A stretch of DNA of 64,000 nucleotides, taken from Oxalobacteraceae bacterium. Its GTDB lineage: Bacteria > Pseudomonadota > Gammaproteobacteria > Burkholderiales > Burkholderiaceae_D. Below the pieces are notes generated by a model. It was given only the letters and a program-made list of their open reading frames with translations, did no database searches and was not told where the DNA came from. The translations under genes and the position numbers were made by a program. Numbering within the stretch: the stretch's first letter is position 1; the number at the start of each line of letters is the position of its first letter. Of the stretch, positions 12,142-54,346 are shown piece after piece. The DNA lies in assembly GCA_900299005.1 (NCBI GenBank), contig OMID01000067.1:1-64000 (forward strand), read 5' to 3'.

Positions 12142-12186
12142 CCCGCAGCGGACCCATCATCGCTGGAGAGACGCTGAGCAACATCG

Positions 12187-12285
12187 TTTTATGGCGAGCC
12201 AGCACCGCTGTGCGACTCTGGCGTCTGCCAGACCAAAGGCTGGCAGCTATTTCCCAAAGGAGAAATCTTGCGATGTTTAATTAAT
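12187..12285 (+). repeat. Dispersed ~100-bp intergenic repeat, copy A
   Basis: gttttatggcgagccagcaccgctgtgcgactctggcgtctgccagaccaaaggctggcagctatttcccaaaggagaaatcttgcgatgtttaattaa; overlaps the stop codon end of the EAL gene. Confidence 0.85.
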
Positions 12286-14098
12286 CGCCTCTCCAGTCTT
12301 CGTTCAGGTGCTTTCGAAGCACTGCGGCAATACTGTTCGCGGTTTGCGGGGCGCTATGCATATAGCCTTGGATCTCATCGCAATTATGCCTGCGCAGGAT
12401 ATTCAGCTGCTCCTGATTTTCCACGCCTTCGGCAACGACGCGCAGCCTGAGGCTGTGCGCGAGTGTCACGAGCCTACCGAGAATGGCTTCGGCACTATCA
12501 TCATCAGGATCAGACAAGGCACGGACGATGTCTTTATCGATCTTCAGGCAATGCAGCGGCATACGCTGAAGATGCACCAAGCTCGAATAGCCAGTGCCAA
12601 AATCATCCATGGCGACTTGTACCCCCAAGCGGTCCAGTTCCTGCAGTAGCCTCTGCGTGCGCTTGACATCTGACATCATCAGGGTTTCCGTCAACTCCAG
12701 CTCCAGGCGTTGGGGAAGAAGATGGGCATCGTCGAGCGCTGTTTTGACCACATGGAGCAGCCCGGCCATGTCAATCTGCCTCGCAGACAGGTTCACGGCT
12801 ATTCTCAGCGCGCCAAGCCCCTCACGCTCCCAGCTTGCCGCTTGCTGCACTGCTTCGTTGACCACCCAAGCGCCGATCGTATTGATCAGCGCGGTCTTTT
12901 CGGCCAGTGGCAGAAACTGCTCCGGCATCAGCTCGCCTAGTCTGGGATTTGCCCATCGTAGCAGGGCCTCGACGCCTGAAATGCGCCCGGTTTTGAGCGA
13001 CACCTGGGGCTGATACACGAGATAAAACTCTCGCTTTTCCAGCGCATGCTGCAATTCAGTCTCGACGATCGCGCGCTGATAAAGTTGGACATCGATGGCC
13101 TCATTGTAGAACTGGTAGCGATTATGGCCAGACCCTTTGGCCAGGTACATGGCGGTATCGGCTTGCAGTATGAGCTCTTCGGCGTTGCGACCATCGACAG
13201 GATACGTGCTGATACCGACGCTGCAGGTGATTGTCAGTTCGAGCCCCTCGATGGCGATGGGTTCGGAAACACTGGCAACAAGGCGCTCGATGATTTGTGG
13301 AGTCAGATAATCGTCAGACCCGCCGCGCAGGATCAGCACGAATTCATCACCCCCATATCTGGCCAGCACATCATCCCTACGGAGTGAGTTCGACAGACGA
13401 CCAGCGACCACTTGTAGAAGCTGGTCGCCGTAAGCATGGCCAAATTGATCATTAATTTGCTTGAAACGATCGAGATCAATAAAGATAACCCAGACGCCAA
13501 ACCCATGACGATCCGCTTGGTGGATAGCATCCCTGAGTTTCAAGATCAGCGAGTCGCGGTTGGTCGCACCGGTAAGTGCATCATGCGTGGCTTGATAGGA
13601 GAGCTGATGTTCACGTTTTTTTCTTTCAGAGATGTCTCGTACCACGGTGTGCGTTGCCGCCTGCCCATCGTGTACTACTCTCACACGTCTGACTGACGCG
13701 TCGAAAGTGCTGCCATCAAGCCGTTGCAGCAGCTCGTCTGTGTGAAGTAAAGAGTTGCTCGCGCCAAGCTGGGCCAGCTGCCGTGCAAGGCTTTCTTGGT
13801 GTGCTACAGGCGTCAGATCAATCGCAAATCGGTCCACTAGCCGCGCCTGAGACGTTTCACGAAACAGCTTTTTGGCAGCGGTGTTGACGAAGACGATCTT
13901 GCCAAGAGACTCAATGAGTATCGCATCCGGTGTTAGCTCAACGATCTGGCGGTACCGTGCTTCACTCTCGCGCAGCGCCACCACCACGCCCTCGTGGTCT
14001 TGAGTACCGGAGAAAAGATCTAGATTTTTTTGCGCTGGCAACGGCTTTAAGCGCTTACGCGGCAAGCGGCTTGCCGCCGGTCTTCCGATCTTACTCAT
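12281..14098 (-). CDS. PAS-GGDEF-EAL diguanylate cyclase/phosphodiesterase
   Basis: PAS-like region, RYGGDEFVLIL, GVEALLRWANPRLGELMPEQFLPLAE, DDFGTGYSSL; start placed at MSKIGRPAASR, ORF could extend to 14239. Confidence 0.92.
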   Translation of the reverse strand: MSKIGRPAASRLPRKRLKPLPAQKNLDLFSGTQDHEGVVVALRESEARYRQIVELTPDAILIESLGKIVFVNTAAKKLFRETSQARLVDRFAIDLTPVAHQESLARQLAQLGASNSLLHTDELLQRLDGSTFDASVRRVRVVHDGQAATHTVVRDISERKKREHQLSYQATHDALTGATNRDSLILKLRDAIHQADRHGFGVWVIFIDLDRFKQINDQFGHAYGDQLLQVVAGRLSNSLRRDDVLARYGGDEFVLILRGGSDDYLTPQIIERLVASVSEPIAIEGLELTITCSVGISTYPVDGRNAEELILQADTAMYLAKGSGHNRYQFYNEAIDVQLYQRAIVETELQHALEKREFYLVYQPQVSLKTGRISGVEALLRWANPRLGELMPEQFLPLAEKTALINTIGAWVVNEAVQQAASWEREGLGALRIAVNLSARQIDMAGLLHVVKTALDDAHLLPQRLELELTETLMMSDVKRTQRLLQELDRLGVQVAMDDFGTGYSSLVHLQRMPLHCLKIDKDIVRALSDPDDDSAEAILGRLVTLAHSLRLRVVAEGVENQEQLNILRRHNCDEIQGYMHSAPQTANSIAAVLRKHLNEDWRGD

Positions 14099-14323
14099 GC
14101 GGGCACCATAGTTCGGATATGAGAGGACAGTTAACCAGAGGCGTGAACCTGCAAGGTGCTCTACATGAGTTATTCCAAGCAAACCGACAGCCTTAATTAT
14201 TGTTATTCTCTTATCGCGTTTGCCAAGAACGATTACCAAGAGGTATGGCGATTGTAACTAAAAGTCAAATTCCGTGCTGAGAGGAGAGGGCGTGCTTGAT
14301 GCGATGCCGATACGCTAATGGGA

Positions 14324-15935: not shown

Positions 15936-16515
15936 TGAAAGCTCCGAAAAATTTTATGATTGTTTTTATTCTTGTCGGGTTGGCGAATGCTGCGCTGCTC
16001 CCGCCCCAAATTGTGCTTCATTTCCTGTGATTGTGCTCAAGTAGCCGCCACGGCTTGTCAAAAAGCTCAGACCAGGAGTGATTCAAGCGTGGGACAGGGG
16101 TAAAAGGGCGCGTGACCCGCCAATTCCCTTGCAGCGCCAAGGTGGCCGGCGGTCCGACATCCAGGGTCGGTAAGTCGTTAAATCATGAAAACGCTGATTG
16201 CAGTGACTGCTCAGTCTCCTTACACTTGGCCGGCGTTAGTTTATTAAAAATCGCCAGCGCGCCTACGAAAAACGGCATCCAGCCTTCATGGTGACGGGTT
16301 GCCACTTTGCGCTGCGATGATGGCCCACGACCTGGCCGGTGGTATTCGATACCTCCCAGGTCAATAGCTTGATTATTAAATAATAAAGGCCGCATTGACG
16401 GCCACCCACTCGCCATTCATTTTCGATCCATTTCCATTCATTCTTCACCCCTCCTGCATTCCTCTCTATGACGTGTTCTTTTTCTTTTGTGTCAGGCAGT
16501 CGGTCGCTGTCACGC

Positions 16516-20511: not shown

Positions 20512-20617
20512 TCGTCCTCGGAGCTTGCTACGCCATCAACGGCGCTGATGTCTGCGCGCTGATTCCCGCGAGGTCTGTCTTGAAGTTCGGAGTGAATTCA
20601 GGGGCACGTCAGCGCTT

Positions 20618-20732
20618 CATTAAACAGCGCAAGATTTCTCCATTGGGAAATAGCGCCAAGCCTTTGAACTGACAGGCGCCCGCGTCGCATAGCGATGCTG
20701 GATCGCCATAACATGGGGTTTCCGTCGTCTCC
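20618..20732 (-). repeat. Dispersed ~100-bp intergenic repeat, copy D
   Basis: Minus-strand reading ggaaaccccatgttatggcgatccagcatcgctatgcgacgcgggcgcctgtcagttcaaaggcttggcgctatttcccaatggagaaatcttgcgctgtttaatg aligns to copies A, B, C in this window. Confidence 0.85.
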
Positions 20733-45297: not shown

Positions 45298-45409
45298 GAA
45301 ACCTAAAGGGGATTTAGGTTGGAGAGGAGACCGCATGAAGCCCCCGTGTCCAGCCTAACGAACATTGTTCTTCGGTATTTGATATCTCTCAAGAGGCATC
45401 AAAGCGCTG

Positions 45410-45528
45410 ATTAAATTAAACACCGCAGGATTTCTTCTTTAGGCAATAGCCGCAAGCCGTTGATCTGGCAGGCTCCCGCGTCGCACGGCGAGGCTGGCCT
45501 GCCATGAAGGGGTTTTTTTCGGCGTCTG
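45410..45528 (-). repeat. Dispersed ~100-bp intergenic repeat, copy C
   Basis: Minus strand cttcatggcaggccagcctcgccgtgcgacgcgggagcctgccagatcaacggcttgcggctattgcctaaagaagaaatcctgcggtgtttaattt. Confidence 0.85.
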
Positions 45529-45573
45529 CCCAAGCATCACGACCCGCGACAGGCCGCGCGGATCGAATGCCCT

Positions 45574-54055: not shown

Positions 54056-54085
54056 GACTGGCGCTGGAACTGGAACTGGAAGCAA

Positions 54086-54180
54086 GGGAGACACCGAAAA
54101 ATGCCATTTTATGGCGAGCCTGCCGCATCAAAAGCTTGCCACTATTCCCGAAAGGAGAACTCTTGCGGTGGTTAATTCAT
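54086..54180 (+). repeat. Dispersed ~100-bp intergenic repeat, copy B (internally deleted)
   Basis: cattttatggcgagcctgccgcatcaaaagcttgccactattcccgaaaggagaactcttgcggtggttaatt aligns to copy A except for ~25 nt missing. Confidence 0.8.
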
Positions 54181-54212
54181 CAGCGATTTCCAAGGCGATA
54201 AAAAACATGAAG

Positions 54213-54324
54213 AACCTATCTCGTTAGGGTGATGGCAAGGCGACAATGCCGCAGACAGTCCCGACGTAAGGCAAGGTATTGGCAAGGCAGTGACAACGCC
54301 ACCAGCGTCCTAACGAGATAGGTT
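54213..54324. repeat. Inverted pair of dispersed element: aacctatctcgttagg ... cctaacgagataggtt
   Basis: Perfect 16-bp arms at 54213-54228 and 54309-54324 separated by 80 bp; arm core also at 38600-38612. Confidence 0.85.
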
Positions 54325-54346
54325 TTAAAAAGAAAGCAGGCGACTT

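Follow-up and report, generated by a model that had tools for sequence, protein, structure and literature searches.

A dispersed intergenic repeat of an Oxalobacteraceae bacterium is probably a genus-restricted, IS5-derived MITE

A described element to which the repeat reported here can be compared is MITEPsy1 of Pseudomonas syringae, a non-coding sequence of 100 nt with 18-nt terminal inverted repeats (TIRs) GGAAGGTCTGAAAAAGCC (PMC3189936). On insertion behind CTAG or YTAA MITEPsy1 duplicates 4 nt; it has been attributed to the IS5-family element ISPsy2, and its transposition has been shown (PMC3189936). For IS5 itself a duplication of YTAR is described (PMC10359306). We analysed a repeat that occurs several times in a 64,000-nt stretch of the genome of an Oxalobacteraceae bacterium (the window). 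An earlier note had taken the repeat either for a family of very small ORFs or for a mobile or structured element whose conservation only looks coding. Judged from its sequence, the repeat is very probably a genus-restricted MITE that derives from IS5 and was moved by an IS5-type transposase.

Copies, ends and target sites of the repeat

The repeat is an element of ~130 bp with imperfect TIRs (GGAGACGCTGA / GGAAGCGCTGA). A search with an nhmmer profile located five copies within the window. Copy A, with a degenerate right end, lies on the plus strand at 12167–12289 (112.0 bits). Copy B, the one given in the earlier note, occupies 20612–20731 on the minus strand (108.4 bits) and is neighboured by a LysR-type regulator gene on one side and an acyl-CoA dehydrogenase gene on the other. 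Copy C, again on the minus strand (45402–45529, 109.4 bits), has as neighbours ribA, the gene for GTP cyclohydrolase II, and an FMN-oxidoreductase gene. In copy D, at 54087–54190 on the plus strand (64.7 bits, profile ends 54086–54188), the alignment revealed an internal deletion of 25 bp that shifts the frame; its flanks read CAAG at 54083–54086 on the left and CAAG at 54191–54194 on the right as target-site duplication. The fifth copy, at 16233–16357 on the minus strand, is decayed (48.8 bits). All four similar segments that had been reported before were found in place and align with each other. Their boundaries required correction in that the TIRs had been cut off, as the element extends over ~131 bp between the TIR ends, plus the 4-bp target duplication. 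As a separate observation, a converging GGDEF/EAL gene (12281–14239, minus strand) takes its final codons and its TAA stop from the right end of copy A (12281–12292).

Using copy B as query against its own genome we obtained 40 scored matches with E-values down to 2.6e-18, a similarity far above the chance level. A profile built from the copies detected 46 of them with scores of ≥40 bits over the 859 kb examined, while the reversed 859-kb DNA, which served as control, gave 0 profile matches. The 859 kb comprised 40 genome stretches together with the window. For the whole genome of 2.92 Mb the total may perhaps amount to ~100–160 copies, a number that is an estimate only because the contigs were picked partly for carrying matches. 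Within the own genome the identity of the copies to the consensus ranged from 94% down to badly decayed, a spread that fits repeated bursts of amplification followed by decay.

The consensus of the element reads CTAG-GGAGACGCTGAAAAAACCCCATTTTATGGCGAGCCAGCATCGCTGTGCGACGCGGGAGCCTGCC...AATTAATCAGCGCTTCC-CTAG with the TIRs CTAGGGAGACGCTGA...TCAGCGCTTCCCTAG, and the length of ~131 bp was found in 31 of 51 copies from relatives. The 4-bp flanks of the copies in the own genome matched at 99 of 168 positions compared to an expectation of 74.9, a value that none of 5000 shuffles reached (p<0.0002). Perfect 4-bp duplications occurred 7 times vs 1.8 times expected from the shuffles, and at lengths of 2, 3, 5 and 6 bp the flanks in the own genome gave no signal. 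An independent replicate was provided by 51 copies that belong to congeners: here 133 positions matched vs 110.0 expected, with no shuffle reaching this value (p<0.0002), and 10 perfect duplications were counted vs 4.0 expected, with a signal at length 4 only. According to the flank composition the preferred target is CTAG or, more loosely, YTAR. Since CTAG and words close to the consensus make up about half of the perfect duplications, single copies prove little and the evidence is statistical.

With respect to genes, 40 of 44 copies did not fall within a predicted gene, in DNA of which 86% is coding; genes were predicted by a simple hexamer method, with which individual placements may be wrong. 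The orientation of the neighbouring genes was unbiased (12 and 12 tandem, 11 divergent and 9 convergent arrangements). Several copies adjoin a stop codon, which would fit the presence of TAG or TAA in the target.

A probable IS5-group partner and the distribution of the repeat

The partner IS was located by a TIR pattern search with the right terminal sequence across the genus. In the congener G013 near-identical IS copies stand at contig edges (at least 16 left ends and ~19 right ends), where the edge sites are CTAG, CTAA, TTAG or TTAA. This IS has the ends GGAAGCGCTGATTTATTCC and GGAAGCGCTGAACAAATCC: the left end reads YTAR directly followed by GGAAGCGCTGATTTATTCC, and the GGAAGCGCTGAACAAATCC end is also found after YTAR. 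Its left end leads into an ORF beginning with MQTSFSELEYAAKKKITRRDRFLAEIDAV. The start of this ORF shares 86–90% identity with transposases that are annotated as IS5 family on plasmids of Hydrogenophilus, Aromatoleum and Aminobacter. The protein of the Hydrogenophilus plasmid is an NF033581 IS5 transposase with 341.8 bits. Compared by eye, the right end of the repeat agrees with the left end of the G013 IS at 16 of 20 bases, 13 of them consecutive, and the left end of the repeat with the right end of the IS at 16 of 20 bases. One of the IS copies is inserted in the CTAG that ends a related repeat (G013:C10).

The own genome (G000) contains a decayed IS5 transposase fragment with a stop (C59:250–456); a copy of the repeat lies ~370 bp away. 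Neither PF01609 nor PF05598, both IS4/IS5 transposase families, was matched in the own genome, and no intact partner transposase is assembled there; the G013 assembly contains the IS edges only. A hunt for unpaired TIRs in G000 returned chance-like matches only. Transposase traces were seen as a remnant in G000, as IS edges in G013 and as fragments in G019 and G011, with an intact gene in none of them; all four genomes belong to the 11 carriers of the repeat among the 21 genus members. Fragments of PF01609 in G001 come without the TIRs of the repeat. Just before the transposase remnant, two ~125-bp repeats (GCGCTGGGACGACGGAGGGTTGGG...CATCCTGACGAAAGTCAGGATCC) in a tandem-like arrangement were noticed at positions 1–245 of L160 (G000:C59).

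Within the genus the distribution is patchy, with species-specific subfamilies. None of the 16 other genera of the order that were sampled carries the repeat, 0 copies were found in plasmids, phages and viral contigs, and two scans of named genomes yielded nothing. The assembly contained no 16S gene. An empty site at the level of strains could not be shown because the relatives are too diverged, the best one having ~61% protein identity for one gene.

The repeat is accordingly short (<~500 bp), lacks a transposase gene, possesses TIRs and a target duplication of fixed length, and exists in multiple dispersed copies. Its ends are common to an autonomous transposon, the G013 IS5 element, of which the internal part is not assembled, and the YTAR target and the 4-bp duplication are those of an IS5-group derivative. 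We infer that mobilisation occurred in trans: the element would insert at CTAG/YTAR-like tetranucleotides and duplicate 4 bp, and its most likely mover would be a DDE transposase of the IS5 group (NCBIfam transpos_IS5_4 type) that a full-length IS with matching ends provided. Selection would have removed genic copies, such that the survivors would be intergenic and in any orientation. In its own genome the family appears to be inactive by now, or nearly so.

Folding, repeat class and the apparent reading frame

Copies that lie between genes, and a consensus that folds strongly (-51.7 and -62.5 kcal/mol for the two strands), would also be expected of a structured RNA or a cis-regulatory element, such as a riboswitch, an attenuator or a terminator, that is kept for its fold. 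The folding is, however, brought about largely by the TIRs, and a search of Rfam remained without match. Of the 6 pairs that RNAalifold kept for 32 copies from several species, 0 carried a compensatory double change. This lack of covariation speaks against the structured element that had been suggested before, and so do the missing orientation preference relative to the neighbouring genes and the 4-bp target duplications, which show insertion. The copies were also not seen to stand regularly upstream of any one class of genes. Conservation as an RNA or a cis-regulatory element is very unlikely.

A REP/REPIN-type element, for which a RAYT (Y1) transposase would be the mover, would resemble the repeat in its size, its palindromic ends, its many copies between genes and its vertical, species-specific subfamilies. 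For RAYT elements a fixed 4-bp target duplication is not expected. Since this duplication is present here and the ends of the element match those of an IS5 element, we regard a REP/REPIN origin as highly improbable.

The ORF family proposed earlier was based on peptides that indeed translate without stops from the copies at 20618, 45410 and 12187. The frame is open in these three copies; in the copy at 54086 the deletion shifts it. Across the genome 34 of 41 young copies were free of stops in the proposed frame, but the remaining frames were almost equally open (31/41 and 31/41 for the other forward frames, 30/41 for one reverse frame). The substitution rates in the 41 young copies were flat over the codon positions 1, 2 and 3 (0.106, 0.130 and 0.119). 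Synonymous changes made up 24.3% vs 26.6% expected without selection, which corresponds to a dN/dS-like ratio of 1.13 without sign of coding constraint. A conserved in-frame start codon was not seen, a Pfam search gave no match, and the frame contains stops in 5 of 6 congeneric consensuses (G006, G013, G008, G003 and G019). That the copies seem to share a reading frame is accidental, and very small genes of ~30–35 aa (YGEPASLCDAG...GEILRCL), alive or remnant and scattered through intergenic DNA, hardly come into question. What remains of the earlier proposals is the mobile element whose conservation only looks coding, in agreement with the TIRs, the multiplicity and the 4-bp target duplications. 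The case calls for caution, as short frames that seem conserved in repetitive DNA between genes may have arisen by chance.

The internal core and comparison with known elements

Inside the element we found a core of 33 bp, TTTTATGGCGAGCCAGCnnnGCTGTGCGACGC, at consensus positions ~27–59 (e.g. 12189–12220 of the window). Between species consensuses it is conserved at 30–31 of 33 positions, level with the TIRs; for the right arm beside it the likeness is only ~50–60%. The core is present in all 11 carrier genomes and in 0 of the remaining 10, and it is absent from the IS ends that were read. Its conservation exceeds what a plain MITE needs, and it is the sole part that goes beyond an ordinary MITE. 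Tentatively, the core could be a functional site, be it a second site that the transposase or a host factor requires for mobility or one that the host has exapted, although we consider such a role rather unlikely. The conserved core leads to the concrete question of which parts a bacterial MITE requires in addition to its two ends.

A second dispersed repeat family was observed at 54212–54326 of the window, with a length of ~104–115 bp and the ends ACCTATCTCGTTAGG...CCTAACGAGATAGGT. It has ~20 copies in the 859 kb examined, and two relatives carry copies as well. Five of its copies overlap with one of the first element or lie at most ~25 bp away from it. This looks above chance, such that one repeat may insert into or beside the other.

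A possible micro-ORF family is in this way settled, with the confidence given above, as a mobile element, and it represents one more case of a familiar type of genome parasite. It would add to the genus an abundant and well-defined IS5-type MITE as well as its partner IS, neither of which was matched in the libraries searched. Correia/NEMIS elements of Neisseria are, as the repeat here, abundant short elements with TIRs in intergenic DNA; their ends are unlike those of the repeat and their target is TA. IS5-group ISs (NF033581 transpos_IS5_4; ISPa41-like; plasmid copies of Aromatoleum, Hydrogenophilus and Aminobacter) have the terminal sequence GGAAGCGCTGA in common with the repeat, and both show the YTAR target and the 4-bp duplication. 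The Aromatoleum copy, for example, begins with CTAG followed by GGAAGCGCTGATTTATTC. In contrast to these ISs the repeat lacks a gene for a transposase, and its interior is unrelated to the IS ends read. MITEPsy1 is a counterpart with similar ends, a 4-nt duplication of CTAG/YTAA and a partner from the IS5 family. It differs from the repeat in sequence, in size (100 nt vs ~131 bp) and in host genus, and it is present in 6 copies in its genome vs 46 copies in 859 kb for the repeat. While transposition of MITEPsy1 has been shown, the mobility of the repeat is deduced from its sequence.
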